NCBI GenBank assembly: GCA_022846035.1 | Contig: AP025580.1 | Span: 1,798,001-1,862,000 of the forward strand | Length of the DNA: 64,000 nucleotides | Reading direction: 5' to 3' | Source: Christensenellaceae bacterium | GTDB taxonomy: Bacteria; Bacillota; Clostridia; Christensenellales; Christensenellaceae | In this document: positions 1 to 10,050 of the stretch, in pieces | Position numbering within the stretch: the first letter of the stretch is position 1 | Layout: each line of letters starts with the position of its first letter | Notes under the pieces: model-generated | What the model was told of the DNA's origin: nothing | The model's database searches: none | Seen by the model: the letters and a program-made list of their open reading frames with translations, nothing else | Program-made: the position numbers and the translations under genes

Positions 1-644
1 TGTTCGAGTTCCGCTTTCTGCGCGCCGCCCTGCTCGATACGCGCCGCATCCTGATAAGGATCGTACACGATTACTTTCATGCCAAAGCTTTTCGCACGCT
101 TTGCCACCTCACGCCCGACGGTACCAAAACCGATGAGGCCGATGGTCTTTCCCTGCATCTCGATGCCTTTGCGCGCCTGCCACGGTCCTTCGGGCGTCAT
201 ATCCCAGATAACGTCCTTTTCACTGCCGTATTCCATATCCGGCGCTGCGAACACACCGCGCCGAAGCTCCCTGTCCGCCCGTGCGATCTTTCTCGTGACT
301 GCCAGTATCTGCCCGATCGTAAAGTCCGCTACCGGAATCGCTTCCCGCCCGAACGTATAGAACACCGGAATCCCGCGCTCCGTCGCGTAGTCCACGTCGA
401 TGTTGGCCCTCGGGCCGCCACGGATAGATGAAATTGCTTTCAAATTGGTATTCTCCAACACTTTCCGCGATACTTCTTCATATCCGACGATCAAAACGTC
501 GGCGTTTCCAATCTGCTGAATGAGTTGATCTTCCGTCAGGATATGCTCCTCAAAGCCCCAGCCGCCGGTGCGCACCGTATGTCCCGCAACCTTGAGCATT
601 TCAATCCCATCCTGGCTGAAATCAGCGCAAATGTATATCTCCAA
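1..644 (-). CDS. D-2-hydroxyacid dehydrogenase, 3' end outside window
   Basis: This NAD-dependent oxidoreductase of the D-isomer 2-hydroxyacid dehydrogenase family would interconvert a 2-oxoacid and a D-2-hydroxyacid in the cytoplasm. The visible 214 residues hold the N-terminal substrate domain (RGGPRANID at about residue 76, the family substrate-loop motif) and the start of the Rossmann domain (GKTIGLIGFGTVGREVA, a GxGxxG fingerprint followed by the acidic D of VYDPY). The start is TTG at 644, with GGAGG at 653-657 eight bases upstream. It is the last gene visible of the BMC operon, 45 bp after the alcohol dehydrogenase, so it may process an alcohol or hydroxyacid product of that pathway. 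The catalytic Glu and His lie beyond the edge and could not be checked. Confidence 0.85.
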   Translation of the reverse strand, partial: MEIYICADFSQDGIEMLKVAGHTVRTGGWGFEEHILTEDQLIQQIGNADVLIVGYEEVSRKVLENTNLKAISSIRGGPRANIDVDYATERGIPVFYTFGREAIPVADFTIGQILAVTRKIARADRELRRGVFAAPDMEYGSEKDVIWDMTPEGPWQARKGIEMQGKTIGLIGFGTVGREVAKRAKSFGMKVIVYDPYQDAARIEQGGAQKAELE

Positions 645-689
645 ATGGCTCGCCTCCAAACTTATACTGTGTTTCTGTTGTGTTTTGTG

Positions 690-1751
690 TTAGTCTTCCG
701 GATAAAGTATGACCTTGACCGCCTGCTGCGAGCGCAGCAAATCAAGCGCCTTATCAAATTCCGATATTTTCAGTTTATGTGTAATTGCTGTATGAAGAGT
801 GAATTTTCCGGCGACTACCAGGTTCATCACGTTTCTCCATGATACCCAGTCGTAACCGAAATGTCCTTTTAACTGGATGGCGCGTCCGACAATATCGTCT
901 AATGAGAAGCCCAGCGGTTTCGCGTCGTAGCCGATTTTGATGATCACACCGGTTGTGCGCACTATTTCGATCGCCTGCCTGAGTACCGCCGCGACGCCCG
1001 CGCAGTCTATGACCGCCGCGACGCCTTCCCCGTTTGTGATACGCTTTACCTGCGCGATGGCGTCCTCCTGGTCCGAGATGACGATGTCCGTCGCCCCGTG
1101 CTCTTTGGCCATCTCAAAGCGTTCCTTGTCCTGCGAAAGTCCGATCACAATGATCTTAGAAGCGCCTGCCGCCCTTGCGGCCTGGATGGAAAACTGCCCC
1201 AACGCGCCGACGCCGAACACCGCCACGTATTCCCCCGGCATTACCTTTGCTTCCTGCACCACCGCCATATAGGCGTTGCACGCAGGATCGAGGATCGCCG
1301 CTTCCTCAAATGAGATACTGTCCGGCAGCCTCATGAGGGAATTCGGGAACTTCTTGAGCGTTTCCCCGTATATCTTGCAGTACTTGGCGAATCCGCCGTC
1401 AAGGCCGTAACCAAGCCCCAGTCGTTCGGGGCACGAAAGGTAATCCGCCGTGGAGCATGCGTAGCATTCGCCGCACACCTTGCCGGTGTTGTCCGAAACC
1501 ACGCGGTCTCCTACTTTCCATTTTGTAACGTTCTTTCCAACTTTGGCCACAACGCCCGAGAACTCATGTCCCAGTATGACGGGCGGAAACAGGATATCCG
1601 CATGGTGTCCGTTCGCAAACGCGAGGTCCGATCCACACAATCCCGCAGCCTTTACTTCCAGTAAAACATCGTCGTCCCCGATTTCGGGAACAGGTACGTC
1701 GCGTAACTCGATACCGTCTTTTCCCTGCTGATATTTTACAACCGCTTTCAA
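690..1751 (-). CDS. Zinc-dependent alcohol dehydrogenase (MDR family)
   Basis: This is a medium-chain dehydrogenase/reductase of the sorbitol, threonine and galactitol-1-phosphate dehydrogenase group. It would oxidise a secondary alcohol or polyol (or run in reverse) with NAD(P). The catalytic zinc ligands are visible in CGSD (about residue 39) and GHEFSG (about 62), and the structural zinc lobe is the four-cysteine run CGECYACSTADYLSC. A nucleotide-binding GVGALG lies near residue 178. The length of 353 aa is normal. The start is TTG at 1751 with GGAGG seven bases upstream, inside the end of gntR, five bases after its stop. No amphipathic targeting extension is seen, so it probably works outside the shell. 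The substrate cannot be named from sequence. Confidence 0.9.
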   Translation of the reverse strand: MKAVVKYQQGKDGIELRDVPVPEIGDDDVLLEVKAAGLCGSDLAFANGHHADILFPPVILGHEFSGVVAKVGKNVTKWKVGDRVVSDNTGKVCGECYACSTADYLSCPERLGLGYGLDGGFAKYCKIYGETLKKFPNSLMRLPDSISFEEAAILDPACNAYMAVVQEAKVMPGEYVAVFGVGALGQFSIQAARAAGASKIIVIGLSQDKERFEMAKEHGATDIVISDQEDAIAQVKRITNGEGVAAVIDCAGVAAVLRQAIEIVRTTGVIIKIGYDAKPLGFSLDDIVGRAIQLKGHFGYDWVSWRNVMNLVVAGKFTLHTAITHKLKISEFDKALDLLRSQQAVKVILYPED

Positions 1752-1755
1752 ATTT

Positions 1756-2466
1756 CTACCTCCACCTGTGAATCAGGAATTTGAAGTTGTCGACCCGTAA
1801 ATATTCGTTGGAGTAGATAAGCGGGGTTCCGTATGCGTCGTTCACCATCATCTTGAACTTTAAGAGCACGTCGCCCTCGGAAAGCTCAAGCATTTTGGCG
1901 ATCTCCCCTTCCGCTTTCATAGGCACCAGTTCCGCGATGCAAAGGCCCATTTCAATGCCGGCCTGGTTTTCGATGAATTTGTAAAGCGAGACGTTCTCAT
2001 CCGTTACGGAAAGAAAATCTTCCACCAGGCGCGGCGCCAGGTAGTCTTCCGAATAGACCACCGGACGGCCGTCCGCCGTACGGATACGCGCGCACATGAC
2101 GAGCGTCGTTCCCTCGTTGACGTTGAGTTTGTCCGCGATTTCACCTTCCGCGCGCACCAGTTCCTTTTTAAAGGACTGTACGCCCGCCGTGTAACCGCTG
2201 AGCTCGATCATCTCCGTGACACTCAGATTGTTATTCAGTGTATCTGCGATCTGGTCCATATTACAGGAAACAAACGTTCCCTTTCCCTGCACGGAATAAA
2301 CCACACCCTCGTTTTTCAGGGCGTTAACCGCTTCGCGCAGCGTCAGACGGCTCACGCCTAAAAGCTCGGAAAGCTGTGTTTCGGAAGGCAATTTATCGCC
2401 CACCTTCAGCTTATTCGCCTTGATATACTTGAATAATTTGTTTTTCGTGTCAACATACGCCAACAT
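1756..2466 (-). CDS. GntR-family transcriptional regulator with UTRA domain
   Basis: This is a HutC-subfamily GntR regulator. An N-terminal winged helix-turn-helix (KLPSETQLSELLGVSRLTLREAV) is followed by QGKGTFV and a C-terminal UTRA effector-binding domain (VVYSEDYLAPRLVEDF, then LIYSNEYLRVDNFKF). UTRA domains bind small phosphorylated sugars or acids, which would fit control by the BMC pathway intermediate. I chose the ATG at 2466 because GGAG precedes it by nine bases; an in-frame ATG at 2481 has no ribosome binding site. It sits between the aldolase-like gene and the alcohol dehydrogenase in one operon. Its likely operator is the palindrome TCATCTGATGA found in both locus promoters (3616-3626 and 10051-10061); that assignment is inference. 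Confidence 0.92.
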   Translation of the reverse strand: MLAYVDTKNKLFKYIKANKLKVGDKLPSETQLSELLGVSRLTLREAVNALKNEGVVYSVQGKGTFVSCNMDQIADTLNNNLSVTEMIELSGYTAGVQSFKKELVRAEGEIADKLNVNEGTTLVMCARIRTADGRPVVYSEDYLAPRLVEDFLSVTDENVSLYKFIENQAGIEMGLCIAELVPMKAEGEIAKMLELSEGDVLLKFKMMVNDAYGTPLIYSNEYLRVDNFKFLIHRWR

Positions 2467-2511
2467 TGCTTTTTTCTCCATTTCAGTTTTTTACTGAGCC
2501 GGCCGCTTACG

Positions 2512-3231
2512 TTAGGTCACATAACTCGACATAACCCTCGTTGCGCCCTGTGGCAACGCCGTAATGCCGCCGCCCAATACGGCCACATCCGCCTTGCCCG
2601 CGCAAGCTGCGATTACCTCTGCAATCACGCCGGAATCTGCCTTTGCATTGCTCATTACAAATGATAATACAATATGCTTGATTCCGCAATCACAAATCAT
2701 TTTCACCGCTTCCCTCAAAGCGTCTGTACAAGCGATTCCCGCTTCCAAAAGCGCCCTTACGCACACGCCGTCCGTTGAAGCGGCAGTGATCATCGCCGTC
2801 TCCAGATCGTTACGCGCGTCGCTTAGCCGGTTTTCTTTCACCAAGTCCATATTGACAGGAATCGTAATCTCGTTCGCGCCGTTCTTAACCGCTTCATTGA
2901 CCTCCGCGTACTTTGCGTACGTGGAAGTGGTGCCGCCCGGCAGGCTGATGATGGTGTCCACCTTTGCACTGCCATGAAGCTTTTCCGCCGCGAGGTTTAC
3001 GAACCATTGCGGTACGCACAGCGCCGTATATCCTTTGCTCCTGACCGCCGCGCATGCCTGTTCAAGGTCGCCGACCGTTGCGTGCGGATCCATCTTCACC
3101 AGTTCGTACGAACCCGCCGCACAGGCGCCTCCCATAGACGGGGCCGCCTGCATGCCGCCCTGCATTGCGGAAAGGTTTCTATATACTTCCTCGGTAATCT
3201 TCTTGATGATGTCTTCCATTTCCAATTTCAA
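2512..3231 (-). CDS. DeoC-like aldolase homologue with BMC targeting helix, catalytic residues missing
   Basis: This is a 239-aa protein of the deoxyribose-phosphate aldolase (DeoC) family, the only candidate aldehyde-producing enzyme in the locus. Family landmarks align throughout: GYTALCVPQWFV, GANEITIPVN, VRALLEAG and the final GATRVMSS. The DeoC catalytic residues do not. The Asp is T123, the first Lys is R159, the Schiff-base Lys (KTSTG in DeoC) is V188, and the last Lys (KxSGG) is A217 or V218. The N-terminus, MEDIIKKITEEVYRNL, is an amphipathic helix followed by a Gly/Ala/Met-rich linker, as in BMC encapsulation peptides, so it is probably cargo. It is either a non-catalytic or scaffold protein or an enzyme with another chemistry; K185 and K197 are the nearest lysines. 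The start is taken as TTG at 3231; ATG at 3219 is possible. Confidence 0.8.
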   Translation of the reverse strand: MKLEMEDIIKKITEEVYRNLSAMQGGMQAAPSMGGACAAGSYELVKMDPHATVGDLEQACAAVRSKGYTALCVPQWFVNLAAEKLHGSAKVDTIISLPGGTTSTYAKYAEVNEAVKNGANEITIPVNMDLVKENRLSDARNDLETAMITAASTDGVCVRALLEAGIACTDALREAVKMICDCGIKHIVLSFVMSNAKADSGVIAEVIAACAGKADVAVLGGGITALPQGATRVMSSYVT

Positions 3232-3280: not shown

Positions 3281-3556
3281 TTACTTCCCCGGCAGGATAT
3301 TTTCGACATCGTCATGGGGACGCGGAATGATATGCATTCCAAACAGTTCTCCTACGCGCTTCGCCGCCGATGCGCCCGCTTCCACCGCCGCGCGTACCGC
3401 GCCGACGTCGCCGCGAACCACAACGGTCACAAGGCCGCTGCCGATCTGTTCTTTACCTGTCAGTTCCACGTTCGCCGCTTTGACCATTGCGTCAGCAGCT
3501 TCGATCGCGCCGATCAGACCTTTGGTCTCCACCAATCCAAGAGCCTGTTTTTCCAT
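3281..3556 (-). CDS. BMC-H hexameric shell protein
   Basis: This is a single-domain bacterial microcompartment shell protein of the PduA/EutM/CcmK family, which tiles shell facets as hexamers with a central pore. It begins [23 protein letters not shown] and contains the family signature [16 protein letters not shown] and the C-terminal [10 protein letters not shown]. The start is the ATG at 3556 with GGAGG eight bases upstream; the in-frame ATG at 3571 overlaps that ribosome binding site. It is nearly a duplicate of the BMC-H protein at 4266-4544. It is the first gene after the internal promoter at 3610-3638, so it and the aldolase-like gene can be expressed separately from the upstream shell genes. 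Confidence 0.96.
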
Positions 3557-3609
3557 TTCTGTATCCTCCATATTATCTAATGATTATGATGTGATGTATT
3601 ATATTTATA

Positions 3610-3690: not shown

Positions 3691-3981
3691 CTATGTGGTT
3701 TTGATCATCCGGCCGTCGATGGTGACGCTGTCGATTACGCCGCATACCGTGAGGTCTCCGATCATTTCTTCGTCGCCGAACATCCGCTTGGCGGCGTCCC
3801 CCTCCGAATTGACGAGCACGATGTCGCCCGTACCCGCTCCCGCCGCGTCAAATGCGATGACGCGCGGTCCTTTTTTTTCAAGCTTATCATTGAGCCATTC
3901 GATAATGACCAGTTTTTTCGCCGTAAACGATTCGTCTTTTACCGTGGAAACGACGTTTCCCACCACTCTGGCGATTTTCAT
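3691..3981 (-). CDS. BMC vertex protein (EutN/CcmL family), copy 1
   Basis: This is a 96-aa pentamer-forming shell protein that caps icosahedral vertices. The EutN/CcmL fold is recognised by ARVVGNVVSTVKDE at the N-terminus, VAFDAAGAGTGDIVLV in the middle and CGVIDSVTIDG at the end. It lies 14 bp after the next vertex gene and shares the VVGNVVSTVK opening with it, suggesting a local duplication. After it comes a promoter-bearing gap of about 130 bp, so it is the last gene of the first transcription block. Confidence 0.95.
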   Translation of the reverse strand: MKIARVVGNVVSTVKDESFTAKKLVIIEWLNDKLEKKGPRVIAFDAAGAGTGDIVLVNSEGDAAKRMFGDEEMIGDLTVCGVIDSVTIDGRMIKTT

Positions 3982-3995
3982 ACTTCGTCCTCACG

Positions 3996-4262
3996 TTACA
4001 TCAGTTCGTTATACGAGTCGATAAACCCGCAAACAGATGCGTCGGCCGGCGTATTTTCGCGGCGCAAAAGAAGACCCGCTTCCTTGGATTCCATAATGAA
4101 AACATAATCGCCTACCCCCGCCTGCTTGGTCGCGTCCGCCGCCACGATCGCCTCCGCCGGCAGTCCGTCGTTCAGGATTTGCACAACGAGCAGCTTAATT
4201 CCGGTCAGATTTTCATTTTTGACAGTGGAAACCACATTACCGACGACTCTTCCCGTGCGCAT
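3996..4262 (-). CDS. BMC vertex protein (EutN/CcmL family), copy 2
   Basis: This is an 88-aa EutN/CcmL pentamer protein: TGRVVGNVVSTVKNE at the start, VAADATKQAGVGDYVFIM in the middle and CGFIDSYNELM at the end. It is shorter than its neighbour at the C-terminus. The start at 4262 is preceded by GGAG in the last codons of the BMC-H gene, only three bases after that gene's stop, so the two are probably translationally coupled. Confidence 0.95.
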   Translation of the reverse strand: MRTGRVVGNVVSTVKNENLTGIKLLVVQILNDGLPAEAIVAADATKQAGVGDYVFIMESKEAGLLLRRENTPADASVCGFIDSYNELM

Positions 4263-4265
4263 CTC

Positions 4266-4544
4266 TTACTCCATATGCGGCAGAATCGTTTCCGTATCGT
4301 TATGCGGACGCGGGATGACATGTACGCCGTACAGCTCGCCGACGCGCTTGGCAGCGGCAGCGCCTGCGTCAACGGCGGCTTTTACCGCGCCTACGTCGCC
4401 GCGAACCATGACCGTAACAAGGCCGGAGCCGATACGTTCCTTACCGATCAGCTTTACGTTAGCCGCTTTGACCATTGCGTCGGCAGCTTCGATCGAACCG
4501 ATCAAACCTTTTGTTTCTACCATTCCCAAAGCTTCTTTTTCCAT
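4266..4544 (-). CDS. BMC-H hexameric shell protein
   Basis: This is a PduA/EutM-like facet protein, starting [23 protein letters not shown] and containing [17 protein letters not shown] and [10 protein letters not shown]. The start at ATG 4544 has AAAGGAG eight bases upstream; the ATG at 4550 is too close to it. It is very similar to the shell protein at 3281-3556, so the locus encodes two close paralogues that could co-assemble or differ in pore properties. It lies between the PduT-like trimer gene and the vertex protein pair. Confidence 0.96.
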
Positions 4545-4588
4545 TTTCATTACTCCTTTTTTATAATTTGAGTATTATATCAGTCGGC

Positions 4589-5134
4589 CTATAAGAGCGA
4601 GCCAACCAGGTCACGATGCAAAGAAGGGATTACTACGCACTGCGAAAGCAGGCCTTGTATTTCCTCGGTTTCCTTAACGGCGGCAACCGCAGCCTCTGCC
4701 GCCGCGACGTCTCCTGTCAGCACCACGAAAGATTTCCCGCCGAGGCCCCGCCCGAGACGCACTTCTATCAGGTCGATATTCGCCGTTTTCACCGCCGTAT
4801 CGGCAGCGATCACCGCCGCGCACAGAGAGAAAGTTTCGACAATGCCTACCGCGTCCACCCTGCCGATTTCGCTGGCCGCGCCCACCGCGCGCAATACCTG
4901 CTCGTGCACGTTTGGGATCACCAGGCTGTCCACCAATTTATCCACGGCGTTCTCGCAGCCCGCCTGTACGGACGAGCGCACCGCCATTACGTCGCCTGCG
5001 ACGATCGCAATGTATTTCCCCGCGCATACCGGCTGTGCGCTTACAAGCCTTACGTCCGCCGTTTTAAGCATCGCGTCCGCGGATTCGATCCCCACCGGTA
5101 TGTTATTGAGTTCTATCATTCCAAGTGCATTCAC
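4589..5134 (-). CDS. pduT: BMC-T trimeric shell protein, PduT-like, with Fe-S cysteine
   Basis: This 181-aa protein is a tandem fusion of two BMC domains, forming a pseudohexameric trimer. Domain 1 starts NALGMIELNNIPVGIESADAM and domain 2 DAVGIVETFSLCAAVIAADTA. The order and spacing match PduT, whose Cys38 sits at the pore and binds a [4Fe-4S] cluster. The equivalent residue is Cys37 in SAQPVCAGKY. PduT partners with PduS to move electrons across the shell, and a PduS-like gene lies immediately upstream (stop to start gap of 21 bp). The start is GTG at 5134 with GGAGG eight bases upstream. The assignment as PduT-like is from alignment by eye with the Salmonella protein. Confidence 0.9.
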   Translation of the reverse strand: MNALGMIELNNIPVGIESADAMLKTADVRLVSAQPVCAGKYIAIVAGDVMAVRSSVQAGCENAVDKLVDSLVIPNVHEQVLRAVGAASEIGRVDAVGIVETFSLCAAVIAADTAVKTANIDLIEVRLGRGLGGKSFVVLTGDVAAAEAAVAAVKETEEIQGLLSQCVVIPSLHRDLVGSLL

Positions 5135-5155: not shown

Positions 5156-6469
5156 TTACATTGTGATCTCAATGAAGTCGCCGACTGCGCTCACGATGCC
5201 GGATATGCTTGCGTGTATCTTAGAACCGAGCGCGTTTTCGCGAATATCCGCGATGAGGTCCCCTGCGTTCACGCTGTCGCCCACCGCGACGACCGGCGTC
5301 GACGGTGCGCCAATACTCATCTTAAGCGGTATCCTGACTTGATTGACGTTCATCAGCTCGTCCTCGAGCGGCGCGGGAACGTCGTATTTGCTAAGCCCCA
5401 AGCGCGCGATCATACGGGAAACGGGAATCCGTTTGCCGTCTATGTCCGGATCGGGCGCAAATGGCACTTCCTTTTGCGGCTTGACGCCCTGTGCCATCAT
5501 ACCCGATTTCAAACGCTGCATGATCTTTGAAGGCGACAGCCCGAAGTTGCACGCGTAATAGGTGCAAATGCCGCAATCGCAGCATGAAAACACTGAATTT
5601 GCCGTTCCGAGCAAAGCTCCTGAACCCTGGGAAACGGCGCGCATCGCTTTGTGCGGCTGCACGTTTAAGCCAAGCGCGTTTCGCGGACACATCTGCGTGC
5701 ACATGCTGCAGTTGCAGCATACCGCCTTTGCCAGACGAATATCGCGCTCGATATTGTCCTGTTTTTTAGCGAGTAGCGGATGGTCGTCCGGAATAACCAG
5801 CAGGCCTCCCGTTGTCTTAGTCACCGGCGTGCTTAAATCTTTGGTAAGCTTACCCATGCACGGCCCGCCGATCACGACCGTGTAACCGTCCATATTTTCC
5901 GGCGCGCCCGCCCTTTGAAGCAGCAGAGATATGGGCGTGCCAATGGGCACGCGCAGCGTCACCGGCTGTTTTACGTGCGCTCCCACCGTCACCATTTTGT
6001 CTGTGACCGGTTTTCCCTTGAGCGCGTTGGCAATGTTTACCAGTGTGCTTACGTTACACACAACCGCTCCCACGTCCAGTGGAAGCCCTCCCGTGGGAAT
6101 AACCCGTCCCGTTACTTCAAACACCATCTGCTGTTCGTCTCCGGCGGGATAATAGCTCTTGAACAACTTAACGCTTACCCCTTGCGAGCGTGCCGCCTTT
6201 TTCAGCGCCGCTACCGCGTCATGGTAATGCTCCTTAAGGCAGATGACTGCTTTTTTAGCCCCCACCTGTTCTTTTACAGCCGCGATTCCCGCGACAACGT
6301 CCTCTGCATACCTTGCCATCAGTTGTTGGTCAACGCGCAGCAATGGTTCGCATTCCGCGCCGTTGCCGATCACGTATTCCGCCTGGCAGCCGATCTTTAC
6401 ATGTGTGGGAAAACCAGCGCCGCCCGCGCCGATGATCCCCGCTTCCCTCACGCTGTCAATCAAACTCAT
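5156..6469 (-). CDS. pduS: PduS-like Fe-S flavoprotein (RnfC/SLBB family)
   Basis: This is a 437-aa redox protein of the RnfC/NuoF-like group that accompanies PduT. It has an N-terminal nucleotide/FMN-binding loop (GIIGAGGAGFPTHVK), an SLBB-type middle domain and two [4Fe-4S] motifs, CCNCSMCTQMCP (about residues 250-262) and CCDCGICTYYAC (about 298-309). A C-terminal biotinyl-like stretch ends the protein. It probably oxidises NADH inside the compartment and passes electrons to the PduT-like pore, so NAD+ is regenerated for the aldehyde dehydrogenase. I chose ATG 6469 because GAGGT is well spaced from it; ATG 6475 is one base from that site. It begins 12 bp after the aldehyde dehydrogenase stop. 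In Pdu loci PduS was first described as a cobalamin reductase, but no B12 enzyme is visible here. Confidence 0.92.
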   Translation of the reverse strand: MSLIDSVREAGIIGAGGAGFPTHVKIGCQAEYVIGNGAECEPLLRVDQQLMARYAEDVVAGIAAVKEQVGAKKAVICLKEHYHDAVAALKKAARSQGVSVKLFKSYYPAGDEQQMVFEVTGRVIPTGGLPLDVGAVVCNVSTLVNIANALKGKPVTDKMVTVGAHVKQPVTLRVPIGTPISLLLQRAGAPENMDGYTVVIGGPCMGKLTKDLSTPVTKTTGGLLVIPDDHPLLAKKQDNIERDIRLAKAVCCNCSMCTQMCPRNALGLNVQPHKAMRAVSQGSGALLGTANSVFSCCDCGICTYYACNFGLSPSKIMQRLKSGMMAQGVKPQKEVPFAPDPDIDGKRIPVSRMIARLGLSKYDVPAPLEDELMNVNQVRIPLKMSIGAPSTPVVAVGDSVNAGDLIADIRENALGSKIHASISGIVSAVGDFIEITM

Positions 6470-6481
6470 ACCCATACCTCG

Positions 6482-7879
6482 TTAAATAATCCTCAAATCG
6501 CCCTGCAGTACGCATCTTCTTGTGCGCGTAAATGTCCGCGCGCTCGTTTGTCCCTCGCCGGTGGGGGTGGCGATCGTCATGGTCGCGAATCCCTCTCCCC
6601 CGAACCCGTTGCCTGCATAGGACGGTCCGTTTTTCACAAAAATCGTTGTATTGAGAGCTGCCGCCGCCATCGACAGGTGGCGCACGTTCATCGAATGGAT
6701 CACCGCCGAATGCTTGCAGTTCTTTTCCGCCATCAGCGCGCTGGCGATTGCATCGTCAATATCCCGCACCCTGGCCACGCCCAGCACAGGCATCAGCATT
6801 TCTGTCATAATGAACGGATGCGTGCGCTCCACTTCCGCAATAATAATACGCGGTTCGCCTGAAAAAGCGACGCCTGCGTTACGCAGGATTACCGCCGCAT
6901 CCTTTCCCACGTATTTACGGTTGATGACATAATTGCCGTTTTTCTCGATCAACGTGGTTTTCATCACCTTATCAATATCCGCGCCATATATCCTGGCAGC
7001 GCCGTTTTTGCACATCTCGTCCATAAGCTGTTCCGCGATGTTCTCAAAAGCAAAAACTTCTTTTTCCGAGATACACATCACGTTATTGTCAAAACTCGCC
7101 CCGTCGATAATATCCTTGGCGGCCTTTTGAATATCCGCCGTATCGTCCACGATTGCGGGCGGGTTGCCCGGTCCTGCGGCGATTACTCTTTTCCCTGTTT
7201 TCATAGCCACCGCGACCACCGCTTCGCCGCCTGTTACCGACAATAACGTAATATCTCGGTGTTCCATCATTTTTTGCCCGCTCTCCATCGTCGGTTCTTT
7301 GACCGTCGTCACCAGCGTCTGCGGGCCGCCTGCCGAAGCTACCGCTTCGTTTACGATACGCATCGCTTCCTGTGAGCACTTCTTTGCCGCCGGATGTGGA
7401 TTGAATACCACCGCGTTGCCTGCGGCGATCATACTGATCGCATTGTTGAGCACCGAACTGGTCGGATTGGTAGAGGGGATGATGGAACCGATCACACCAA
7501 ACGGCGCATGTTCAATGAGCGTCAGTCCTTCGTCGCCTGAAACCGCGCGGGTTTCGATGTCCTCGGTTCCCGGCGTGCTTTCCGCGAGCAGCACGTTTTT
7601 AAACGCTTTCTGGTCCGCGTGGCCGTAACCCGTTTCCTCGTGCGCCAGCTTCCCCAGATAGTCGGCGTTTTTTACGCCCGCCGTACGGATCGCTTCAATA
7701 ATACGTTTGCGCTGCTTAAGCGTCATTGCCGCCAGTTGCCTTTGCGCCAGCTTGGCGTTTTCCACCGCTTCGTCCATATCGTCGCACAACCATCGCGCCG
7801 TATTACCGGCTGCATGGGTAAGCAGGCCGCTTACCGTACTGGCGATGAGTTTTTTAAGCTGTTCTTCCGTCATTTGCAT
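6482..7879 (-). CDS. CoA-acylating aldehyde dehydrogenase (PduP/EutE type)
   Basis: It converts an aldehyde, CoA and NAD+ to acyl-CoA and NADH in the compartment lumen. The catalytic Cys is C269 in FDNNVMCISEKEV, the EutE/PduP context. Nucleotide-binding landmarks are IGSIIPSTNPTSSVL (about 131-143) and AAGPGNPPAIVDDTADI (about 234-250). The first 20 residues, TEEQLKKLIASTVSGLL, form an amphipathic helix of the encapsulation-peptide type, followed by a linker before the conserved domain. The length of 465 aa is typical. It is flanked by the tailed vertex protein upstream and PduS downstream. It is the core enzyme of any aldehyde-processing BMC; whether it handles acetaldehyde, propionaldehyde or lactaldehyde cannot be told from sequence. 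Confidence 0.95.
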   Translation of the reverse strand: MQMTEEQLKKLIASTVSGLLTHAAGNTARWLCDDMDEAVENAKLAQRQLAAMTLKQRKRIIEAIRTAGVKNADYLGKLAHEETGYGHADQKAFKNVLLAESTPGTEDIETRAVSGDEGLTLIEHAPFGVIGSIIPSTNPTSSVLNNAISMIAAGNAVVFNPHPAAKKCSQEAMRIVNEAVASAGGPQTLVTTVKEPTMESGQKMMEHRDITLLSVTGGEAVVAVAMKTGKRVIAAGPGNPPAIVDDTADIQKAAKDIIDGASFDNNVMCISEKEVFAFENIAEQLMDEMCKNGAARIYGADIDKVMKTTLIEKNGNYVINRKYVGKDAAVILRNAGVAFSGEPRIIIAEVERTHPFIMTEMLMPVLGVARVRDIDDAIASALMAEKNCKHSAVIHSMNVRHLSMAAAALNTTIFVKNGPSYAGNGFGGEGFATMTIATPTGEGQTSARTFTRTRRCVLQGDLRII

Positions 7880-7900: not shown

Positions 7901-8347
7901 TTATTTCTTCTTATGCCTTGCGCTTCGTTTTGCGTTGCTGCTTTTATATTGGTTCGGCGGCTTTTGCACCGCTTTTTGCTGCGGCAGCCCTGCCGTATCC
8001 TGTGCGGGCGGTTTTACTTCCGCCGCCGGTTTTTCCTCTCGTTTCGTTCTGCCCAGCGCTTTATCAAAAACGCGCCCGTTTTCAATATCTACGCTGTCTA
8101 TGATCGCCACAATGGTGGAATCCGTCGGTTTATCGGACATCGTGTCCGTCATGCGCGCGCTGCTTCCGTTCACCAGCATAACGACCTCGCCCGCGCCCGC
8201 GCCCACCGTATCAAGGCTCGCTACCGCGCGGCCGCTTTCCTCAAATGTCAATACGTCGAGGGGCTGTACGATCAATATTTTGATGCCGTCGAGGCGGTGC
8301 GCCTTTTTGGTACTGACAACCTGCCCTTTTACGATCCCAAGCTGCAT
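7901..8347 (-). CDS. BMC vertex protein with long basic tail, copy 3
   Basis: This is an EutN/CcmL pentamer protein of 148 aa, about 50 residues longer than usual. The core is normal: QLGIVKGQVVSTKKAH, LDTVGAGAGEVVMLVNGSS and VAIIDSVDIENG. From about residue 100 on, the extra C-terminus is rich in Lys, Arg, Pro, Gln and Ala and ends ARHKKK, so it is likely disordered and positively charged. The tail could bind cargo, nucleic acid or the acidic parts of lumen enzymes (inference). The gene lies directly upstream of the aldehyde dehydrogenase and 12 bp after the next vertex gene. Confidence 0.92.
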   Translation of the reverse strand: MQLGIVKGQVVSTKKAHRLDGIKILIVQPLDVLTFEESGRAVASLDTVGAGAGEVVMLVNGSSARMTDTMSDKPTDSTIVAIIDSVDIENGRVFDKALGRTKREEKPAAEVKPPAQDTAGLPQQKAVQKPPNQYKSSNAKRSARHKKK

Positions 8348-8359
8348 CCTGCTTCCCCC

Positions 8360-8659
8360 CTATTTTTTATACTTCTCAAAAATGACTTTTCCGTTTTCTT
8401 CAATGGAATCGAGCACGGCCACGGCCGTATAATCAATAGGGTAGTTCTCCAGCCCGTCGACCTTGCGCGAGCTGCTGCCCCGACAGCACATGACAACCTC
8501 GCTTTCGCCCGCGTCCACAGCGTCCACAACGACTTCGAGTTCTCCCGTTTCCACAAGCGTGTCCGGATCTAGCCCGCCGACGATCAGCAGCTTAAGCCCG
8601 TTTAAGTGTTCACTTTTTGTACTGCTGACGACCGTTCCCCGAACCTTTCCTATTAGCAT
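8360..8659 (-). CDS. BMC vertex protein (EutN/CcmL family), copy 4
   Basis: This is a 99-aa pentameric vertex protein, recognised by LIGKVRGTVVSSTKSE, VVVDAVDAGESEVVMCCRGSSSRK and VAVLDSIEENG. It resembles the GSSxR-containing type typical of GRM and Pdu-like loci and pairs with copy 3 just downstream, which has the same NGSSAR feature. It begins four bases after the stop of the flavoprotein-like gene. Four vertex genes in one locus is more than the one to three commonly seen. Confidence 0.94.
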   Translation of the reverse strand: MLIGKVRGTVVSSTKSEHLNGLKLLIVGGLDPDTLVETGELEVVVDAVDAGESEVVMCCRGSSSRKVDGLENYPIDYTAVAVLDSIEENGKVIFEKYKK

Positions 8660-8663
8660 TCCC

Positions 8664-9359
8664 TTACTCCCATACCGATTCGATGAGCCTGAGCCCCGTC
8701 TCCTTGAGCGCCTCGCGCCCTAGCGGCGTGACGATGGCGTTTTTCATGCATTCTATAGTATCGGCTCCCGCCTTTTGCGCGTCGTATACGTCGCGCTCCG
8801 TTACCAGCGACAGCTTGTTTTCATTCTTTTGCTCCCGGCACCGGTATTCCAGTATTTCTATGTCCATCGCCCGCAGCGCGTCCACCGTATCCACGATTTT
8901 CTCAAAGAAAGTATTGCGTGCAAAGCGGGGCGGAACAAAATCCAATACCACGCTGATCTTCGCTCCCCAAAGCAGAGAACGCAGGATCGCCCGCGAGACC
9001 AGGCATTCGTCCTCCCCCTGGGCAATTCGCTTCATAAGCGCCACGCCCGGCGCAACCAGCGCAATCTTCTCCGCCCGCTCCAGCCGCTTAAAGAGCGCTT
9101 CCTCCTGCGCTTCCATGCGCACTGGGAAAAGTTCCGCCCCTGAAAAATCACAGTCATGGAAGAGCAGGCAATCAATACCGTTGCCAAAGGTTTTTATGAG
9201 GAGTTCTCTGCATTTTTCAGGAGCGGGTACATAACCGGTCACGACCGCAACGGCCGCGCCGTCCTCGCTTTGGAGTCCCGACAGGGGCTTATATTCCTCT
9301 TGTATAGCCTGCGTTACTTTTTTTACAATCGCAGCGATGTCGATACTTCCTATATCCAT
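8664..9359 (-). CDS. Flavoprotein-like BMC-associated protein
   Basis: This is a 231-aa protein not identified with certainty. The middle, KIALVAPGVALMKRIAQGEDECLVSRAILRSLLWGAKISVVL, resembles the flavoprotein fold (Dfp/DpaB-like), where an LxAPxxA loop contacts FMN and the following helix carries xNLLxxA. The N-terminus (DIGSIDIAAIVKKVTQAIQEEYKPL) is a likely amphipathic encapsulation helix followed by a variable linker. It would therefore be a lumen protein, possibly a flavin partner of the PduS/PduT electron path; this is inference. It lies between pduL and the first vertex gene with gaps of four to eight bases, so it belongs to the operon. It could also be a structural member with a degenerate binding site. 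Confidence 0.6.
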   Translation of the reverse strand: MDIGSIDIAAIVKKVTQAIQEEYKPLSGLQSEDGAAVAVVTGYVPAPEKCRELLIKTFGNGIDCLLFHDCDFSGAELFPVRMEAQEEALFKRLERAEKIALVAPGVALMKRIAQGEDECLVSRAILRSLLWGAKISVVLDFVPPRFARNTFFEKIVDTVDALRAMDIEILEYRCREQKNENKLSLVTERDVYDAQKAGADTIECMKNAIVTPLGREALKETGLRLIESVWE

Positions 9360-9367
9360 CTTGCCGC

Positions 9368-10006
9368 CTATCTGACGATTTCGAGCAAGTCGCCGTTTAA
9401 AATGCGTCCTGCGTTCGCTTCATCCGTATCGATATGTAATTCCAGTTCAAAATCCTCATGCACGCGCACCGCCACGTTTTCCATGCACAGCGCCCGTTGC
9501 CCTCCCTGCCGCAACCGGATCACATCCCTGTCACAAAGCCCAAGCAGGCTTGCCTGCGCCGGAGAGGCATGCAAGTGCCGCGCGGCCACGATTACGCCGT
9601 ATGGAAACTCAATCTGTCCTTTCGGGCCGATCAAAGTGCCGCCGGGCGTACCGTCAAGTTCGCCGGACATCCTGATGACAGGTTCCACGCCTGTCTTAAA
9701 ACAATCTGTCAGCGAAAGTTCTACCTGCGTTTGGCTGCGTATCGGTCCCAATACGCGGATTTTTTCAATGCTTCCCTTTTTACCCTGGAATGTGAGCGTC
9801 TCTTCGCATGCATACTGTCCGTGCTGCATCAAAGGTTTTACCGGATGAAGCCGGTATCCCCTGCCGAAAAGCGTCATGACGTCTTCGGTGTTCAAATGGA
9901 TGTGCCTGGCTGAAACCGCAGCCGGAACATAAAATTTGCCGTAAAGGCTTGCCACCGCTAAGGCAGCCGAGATCCGGATATGTGATTTCAGCTCTGCATA
10001 GTCCAT
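9368..10006 (-). CDS. pduL: PduL-type phosphate acyltransferase
   Basis: PduL converts acyl-CoA and phosphate to acyl-phosphate and CoA, recycling CoA inside the compartment and yielding a product for ATP synthesis by acetate/propionate kinase. Two copies of the PduL zinc-binding motif are visible, VSARHIHL (about residue 32) and VAARHLHAS (about 140), with the acidic CEETLTF between them and the GGTLIGPKG loop. The N-terminal 20 residues form a helix (MDYAELKSHIRISAAL) that may target it. I chose ATG 10006, well spaced from GAGG; ATG 10012 is nearly touching it. It is the first gene of the locus behind a consensus promoter. Confidence 0.94.
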   Translation of the reverse strand: MDYAELKSHIRISAALAVASLYGKFYVPAAVSARHIHLNTEDVMTLFGRGYRLHPVKPLMQHGQYACEETLTFQGKKGSIEKIRVLGPIRSQTQVELSLTDCFKTGVEPVIRMSGELDGTPGGTLIGPKGQIEFPYGVIVAARHLHASPAQASLLGLCDRDVIRLRQGGQRALCMENVAVRVHEDFELELHIDTDEANAGRILNGDLLEIVR

Positions 10007-10050
10007 TATCATCTAACCTCGCAATATAGTTATAATCTTTTTATAATAAG

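Follow-up and report, generated by a model that had tools for sequence, protein, structure and literature searches.

A DeoC-family barrel without the catalytic residues of deoxyribose-phosphate aldolase, retained in a bacterial microcompartment operon

The window, i.e. the whole 64,000-nucleotide stretch of a Christensenellaceae bacterium that was analysed here, encodes a protein with the fold of deoxyribose-phosphate aldolase (DERA; DeoC) in which all four DERA catalytic residues are replaced. The protein, designated DeoCx, belongs to a bacterial microcompartment (BMC) locus (Table 1). To judge from the aligned sequences, classical DERA function has almost certainly been lost, and the combination of sequence comparison and structure modelling leads us to lean slightly towards DeoCx being a pseudoenzyme without aldolase catalysis that is retained in the lumen of the metabolosome as a structural or adaptor protein. 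DeoCx offers a traceable loss of catalytic residues by a central metabolic enzyme retained in the operon of a bacterial organelle, with an intact sister clade, one intermediate and four fully changed members available as a series. It also illustrates that a DeoC Pfam hit alone is insufficient to annotate a BMC locus as deoxyribose-degrading.

Table 1. Features of the DeoCx locus. Positions are those of the window, except where prefixed by the locus (L006, the window locus).
Feature	Position	Strand	Basis
Cassette 2-hydroxyacid dehydrogenase, truncated at the window edge	1..659	-	L006:11602-12660
FBAII, class II aldolase-like, just left of the window	L006:10532-11605 (G000:C1:1796531-1797604)	-	PF01116, 251.6 bits
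Zinc-type medium-chain dehydrogenase of the cassette	690..1751	-	5/5 loci
GntR/UTRA regulator, first cassette gene past DeoCx	1756..2481	-	5/5 loci
DeoCx, DERA-fold protein minus the DERA catalytic residues	2512..3231	-	sequence, alignment, structure model
Codon of A217, Lys201 position	2581..2583	-	alignments
Codon of V188, Schiff-base Lys position (Lys167)	2668..2670	-	alignments
Codon of R159, Lys137 position	2755..2757	-	alignments
Codon of T123, catalytic Asp position (Asp102)	2863..2865	-	alignments
Gly/Ala-rich linker of DeoCx, residues 24-39, low confidence	3115..3162	-	pLDDT under 50
N-terminal amphipathic helix of DeoCx, residues 5-24, candidate encapsulation peptide	3160..3219	-	model helix; hydrophobic-moment shuffle p 0.004
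BMC-H shell protein	3281..3571	-	
EutN-type vertex protein	3691..3981	-	PF03319, 83.8 bits
EutN-type vertex protein	3996..4262	-	PF03319, 73.7 bits
BMC-H shell protein	4266..4550	-	PF00936, 102.5 bits
BMC-T shell protein, PduT-like	4589..5134	-	
PduS/RnfC-like electron-transfer protein	5156..6475	-	
EutE-type CoA-acylating aldehyde dehydrogenase with its catalytic Cys	6482..7879	-	NF011927, 623 bits
EutN-type vertex protein with C-terminal extension	7901..8347	-	
EutN-type vertex protein	8360..8659	-	PF03319, 77.8 bits
Distant TIGR02536/PduM-like protein, N-terminal amphipathic helix	8664..9359	-	weak matches, below cut-offs
PduL phosphotransacylase	9368..10012	-	

Fold and catalytic residues of DeoCx

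DeoCx comprises 239 residues from a TTG start on the minus strand, and its gene comes after a same-strand run of BMC genes that extends from PduL to BMC-H and EutN genes. Orthologues were recovered in four further loci (L049, L050, L051 and L052). The window protein scores barely above the Pfam DeoC cut-off (PF01791; 24.6 vs 23.8 bits) and well below the equivalog cut-off of TIGR00126 (65.9 vs 117.3 bits). The orthologue in L051 falls below the Pfam cut-off (22.3 bits), the other three lie above it (29.6-32.9 bits), and that in L049 also reaches the cut-off of TIGR00126 (134.5 bits). The initial annotation had recognised landmarks of the family over the whole length of the protein, and homology to DeoC does extend along the entire barrel; the structure prediction that it proposed recovered the DERA fold, a DeoC-family TIM barrel preceded by a helix and a linker. 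Structures matched by the model include 3qyq and 4eiv, which we take to be a Toxoplasma DERA-like protein. That protein reportedly has no DERA activity and shares the DERA fold, although it belongs to a eukaryote and to no microcompartment.

Catalytic positions were read from an alignment of 76 DeoC-family rows, consisting of the window protein, 74 proteins from fetched loci and E. coli DeoC; open reading frames shorter than 195 aa, those with blastp E > 1e-6, near-identical copies and five duplicate loci were left out. Asp-Lys-Lys-Lys (DKKK) is present in 69 rows and Asp-Lys-Lys-Met (DKKM) in two. The remaining five are the DeoCx proteins, which read TRVA in the window, EKVK in L049, IYMG in L051, LYLG in L050 and LAMG in L052. 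All five, L049 included, therefore lack the Schiff-base Lys as well as the catalytic Asp; L049 keeps the equivalents of Lys137 and Lys201. A profile-profile alignment against 10 canonical DeoCs gave the identical mapping (T123, R159, V188 and A217), confirming the replacement of all four residues that had been noticed at the outset. A misalignment hiding the Schiff-base Lys can be ruled out: K185 and K197, the two residues that had been named as possible occupants of this position, are both off-position in the profile-profile alignment and unconserved in the other four DeoCx proteins. A sequencing error or frameshift is rejected because the loss recurs in four further genomes with differing residues.

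Some of the phosphate-binding residues, which we take to be T170, G171, K172, G236, S238 and S239 in E. coli numbering, are changed as well. The window protein reads F, V and M at T170, G171 and K172, respectively, and Met at G236, and it keeps the Ser at S238. DeoCx departs from DERA (PF01791, TIGR00126) both in Asp102, Lys137, Lys167 and Lys201 and in the T170/G171/K172 loop.

Relatives and distribution

DeoCx is rare within the order, phylum and contig sets that were searched. At the level of the order, 7/396 genomes matched at E <= 1e-15, three of which carry DeoCx, and a profile search in a draw of 398 genomes from the phylum matched the window's own genome alone at E <= 1e-36. A contig scan with a single DeoCx sequence gave no match; with a three-row profile it returned four DeoCx loci, two of them new beyond the order search. 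The class-level profile search matched 163/391 genomes at E <= 1e-20, mostly through ordinary DeoCs, and of 28 among the best matches that were fetched as loci, all those aligned were DKKK except the window. Seven plasmid records contained distant DeoC-like matches.

In the tree, DeoCx forms a single clade (100/100), sister to seven BMC-linked DeoC proteins (DeoC2), with support of 99/92 for the combined set of 12 rows. DKKK is intact in all seven DeoC2 proteins. The first branch within the DeoCx clade is L049, and because this basal member retains two of the lysines, catalytic loss was stepwise. Several DeoCx branches are long and that of E. coli DeoC is very long, so the deep placements are to be read cautiously. 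Identity among DeoCx proteins is 33-42% outside one close pair (80%).

Conservation and selection

Conservation was compared among five DeoCx, seven DeoC2 and 59 other DeoCs, with E. coli DeoC, two proteins of a third DeoC type (DeoC3) and the two DKKM rows excluded; active-site columns were scored by mean pairwise identity against 5000 random column sets. Across 17 active-site columns, DeoCx scored 0.45 vs 0.41 elsewhere, a value reached by 1501/5000 random sets. In DeoC2 these columns scored 0.92 vs 0.52, and in the other DeoCs 0.87 vs 0.49; none of the 5000 sets came as high in either group. Omission of the C-terminal columns left 14, with 0.48 vs 0.41 in DeoCx (1019/5000), and the two control groups then scored 0.96 and 0.91. 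The four catalytic columns by themselves fell to 0.17 in DeoCx (vs 1.00). The ten non-catalytic columns of the 14 were somewhat in excess (0.60 vs 0.41; 145/5000 random sets as high). Positions that carry this excess include C72 and G220 as well as M47 and L97, the latter two specific to the clade and fixed in DeoCx where Leu and Phe stand otherwise. This excess at the barrel mouth makes a re-used pocket possible and counts against full relaxation.

Conservation is also uneven along the barrel. In DeoCx, the beta2-alpha2 and beta3-alpha3 segments score 0.59 and 0.67 (0.63 and 0.61 in DeoC2), and everything from beta5 to the end scores 0.33-0.39, vs 0.53-0.61 in DeoC2; judged by these alignments, the beta5-beta8 half is decayed while the beta2/beta3 part stays conserved. 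The invariants specific to the clade (M47, W76, L97, G99, Y108, P125 and M128) include no charged residue. The L050/L051 pair, the sole one close enough, gave a dN/dS of 0.112 for DeoCx at a dS of 1.17; in the same pair, with GntR left out of the comparison, the cassette enzymes and the transporter gave 0.02-0.10, and PduL and the TIGR02536-like gene 0.10-0.11. A pseudogene is ruled out by the intact frame in five loci and this dN/dS from one pair. DeoCx appears to combine the features of a pseudoenzyme: a fold kept in the model, lost catalytic residues and purifying selection, the last as estimated from a single pair.

N-terminal helix

The signature of encapsulated BMC cargo, an amphipathic helix at one terminus attached through a disordered linker, is present in the window DeoCx. 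The encapsulation-type helix proposed initially was supported by the structure model, and its hydrophobic moment exceeded that of shuffled sequences in the window protein (Table 1). By the same test, the helices of the orthologues in L052 (p 0.53) and L049 (p 0.075) are not significantly amphipathic. Within the clade the helix is conserved at 0.41, and the linker is the least conserved stretch.

A conserved sugar cassette with an altered class II aldolase

The initial annotation had taken the DeoC homologue to be the one protein of the locus that might supply aldehyde. This proved wrong: the genes run on past window position 1 with the 2-hydroxyacid dehydrogenase, the class II aldolase-like protein FBAII, an FGGY kinase, a flavin-reductase-like protein and a ribose-type ABC transporter. 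The order DeoCx - GntR - Zn dehydrogenase - hydroxyacid dehydrogenase - FBAII - FGGY kinase - ABC transporter is common to all five loci, and the flavin-reductase-like gene between kinase and transporter is confined, among these five, to the window's genome. Four cassette enzymes are 55-85% identical across the loci, vs 33-42% for DeoCx outside its close pair. L052 shares the cassette though its shell and core diverge (48% identity for the aldehyde dehydrogenase and 43-45% for PduS). In the stretch of L049 that was examined (JABGQS010000008.1, 8972-20110), PduL, PduS and a EutE-like aldehyde dehydrogenase were not found; an ordinary aldehyde dehydrogenase (PF00171), 27% identical to the window's, lies ~10 kb upstream. 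The genome of L049 (G038) also contains a complete DeoC2-type BMC locus (L043), and L049 may be a satellite relying on a core encoded by another BMC. As the cassette is constant while the core differs in L052 and L049, DeoCx seems to travel more with the sugar cassette than with a particular core. Among the remaining genes of the window locus, the protein encoded at 8664-9359 (-) has relatives at 22-38% identity in seven of the nine loci compared.

FBAII was compared with 12 other aldolases and has Ser85, Cys231 and Tyr233 where all 12 carry the catalytic Asp, Asn and a variable residue (Asp/Tyr/Phe/Ala), respectively. All 17 proteins (five FBAII and 12 comparators) retain the zinc ligands, three His, and the Glu, whereas 5/5 FBAII and 0/12 comparators have a C-terminal tail that ends in W-x-K-N-V/L; FBAII has no encapsulation-type N-terminal extension. 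All five FBAII carry the same replacements, unlike the DeoCx proteins, whose replacements vary; this uniformity suggests an altered function, and with catalytic residues changed FBAII is a putative aldehyde maker. At E <= 1e-60, FBAII was found in 3/396 genomes of the order, the same three that carry DeoCx. Among 382 genomes drawn from the class, its own genome gave 818 bits and the runner-up 196 bits. The altered aldolase beside DeoCx makes the substrate of the locus a testable question, and FBAII is possibly more interesting than DeoCx itself.

Possible roles of DeoCx

Sequence and model show a DERA barrel of common descent with BMC-linked DeoCs, whose catalytic residues were lost stepwise while the protein stayed under purifying selection; we propose that it lost aldolase catalysis with them. 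Its N-terminal helix would join it to the encapsulated core, and the conserved beta2/beta3 part (residues about 69-117) would hold a partner, for which the best candidate may be FBAII, bound via its conserved C-terminal tail. The FGGY kinase would make a ketose phosphate, from whose cleavage FBAII would supply aldehyde for the EutE-type dehydrogenase. The more specific idea that the dead barrel is a docking subunit, recruiting altered FBAII by its tail in a pathway whose sugar or polyol substrate has so far been assigned to no microcompartment, is speculative and on balance doubtful. If DeoCx is an adaptor, the metabolosome would have swapped its signature enzyme and re-used the old one as a socket. 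The pseudoenzyme reading rests on five sequences, two of them close (80%), and its dN/dS on one pair.

The initial annotation had left the choice between a pseudoenzyme and an enzyme with new chemistry; the conservation pattern favours the former. New chemistry at the mouth of the barrel on its beta2/beta3 side, such as an isomerase, epimerase or dehydratase reaction, is in our estimate unlikely, and draws on the beta2-alpha3 region being the most conserved part of the protein, on the clade-specific invariants and the excess at the ten non-catalytic columns, and on the strict linkage of DeoCx to one catabolic cassette. GatZ/KbaZ, long called aldolase chaperones, are described as having C4-epimerase activity (PMC11907403), a precedent that also speaks for new chemistry and urges caution against a pure scaffold reading. 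However, all four former catalytic positions are free to vary, the clade-specific invariants include no charged residue and the sole one with a hydroxyl, Y108, lies inside the model helix 104-116. DeoCx could instead sense a ligand or act as a regulatory subunit, serving either the GntR regulator or a cassette enzyme, given that deoCx directly precedes gntR in 5/5 loci and that the barrel and some mouth columns are retained. We regard such a role as quite improbable, as GntR has its own UTRA ligand domain and a core-targeting helix would be odd on a cytosolic sensor.

Two further readings concern a protein that is either on its way out or still residually active. Fast divergence relative to the four cassette enzymes and the stepwise loss of catalytic residues would suit a relic that is decaying from a DeoC2-like ancestor towards loss, but an intact frame in five genomes, the low dN/dS, the conserved beta2/beta3 part and a fixed gene position make it very unlikely. 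Weak DERA-type activity via a lysine elsewhere would find its best case in L049, with its two remaining lysine equivalents and its TIGR00126 score. With the Schiff-base Lys and the Asp missing in 5/5, and K185 and K197 both unconserved and off-position, hardly any weight can be given to it.

Comparison with known systems and other DeoC types

To our knowledge, PduM and PduB are not DeoC-like. These structural Pdu proteins are described as carrying and requiring core-targeting signal sequences (PMC12108088), and a core-targeting sequence on a structural non-enzyme is the likeness to the role that we infer for DeoCx. Sugar phosphate utilisation (SPU) microcompartment types share DeoC (PF01791) and RpiB (PF02502), according to PMC8217296 and PMC4207490, and resemble the window locus in having a DeoC-family gene with shell genes and an aldehyde dehydrogenase; they differ in that the window locus has a DeoC without catalytic residues and its RpiB far off in the genome. 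SPU membership is ruled out, with RpiB matches in the same genome at 0.41, 0.44 and 2.51 Mb vs 1.80 Mb for the locus. GRM5, PVM and PVM-like loci have a class II aldolase described as the putative aldehyde source (PMC4207490), of family PF00596 (PMC8217296, PMC4207490), whereas that of the window locus belongs to PF01116 and has altered catalytic residues. At the level of titles and abstract openings, literature on microcompartments, DERA, pseudoenzymes and inactive aldolases yielded no such protein, and a BMC catalogue may include a matching locus type.

A further close likeness is the BMC-linked DeoC2 of a second BMC locus in the same genome (L005:9484-10230:+), which likewise stands at the end of shell genes, has the same kind of N-terminal helix and belongs to the sister clade; it differs from DeoCx in keeping all four catalytic residues, as do the other DeoC2 proteins. 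In this DeoC2 and those of six other loci, KIQN/KISN replaces KTSTG in the phosphate loop, so their substrate may differ from deoxyribose-5-phosphate.

Other members of the family were encountered alongside. The second BMC locus also encodes a DERA with intact catalytic residues (L005:13353-14180:+), found in L046, L047 and L059 as well, a type that is extended at the N-terminus by an encapsulation-type sequence and bears the motif CxxCxxCxxxCP at the C-terminus; the L005 protein matches the 4Fe-4S family PF00037 (23.6 vs 21.1 bits). A third DeoC type (L083:3664-4422:- and L084:12259-13068:-) lies near PduL and sugar genes, in L084 also near BMC-H genes, and keeps the catalytic residues together with KIAATT/KVAATT and KADGG motifs.
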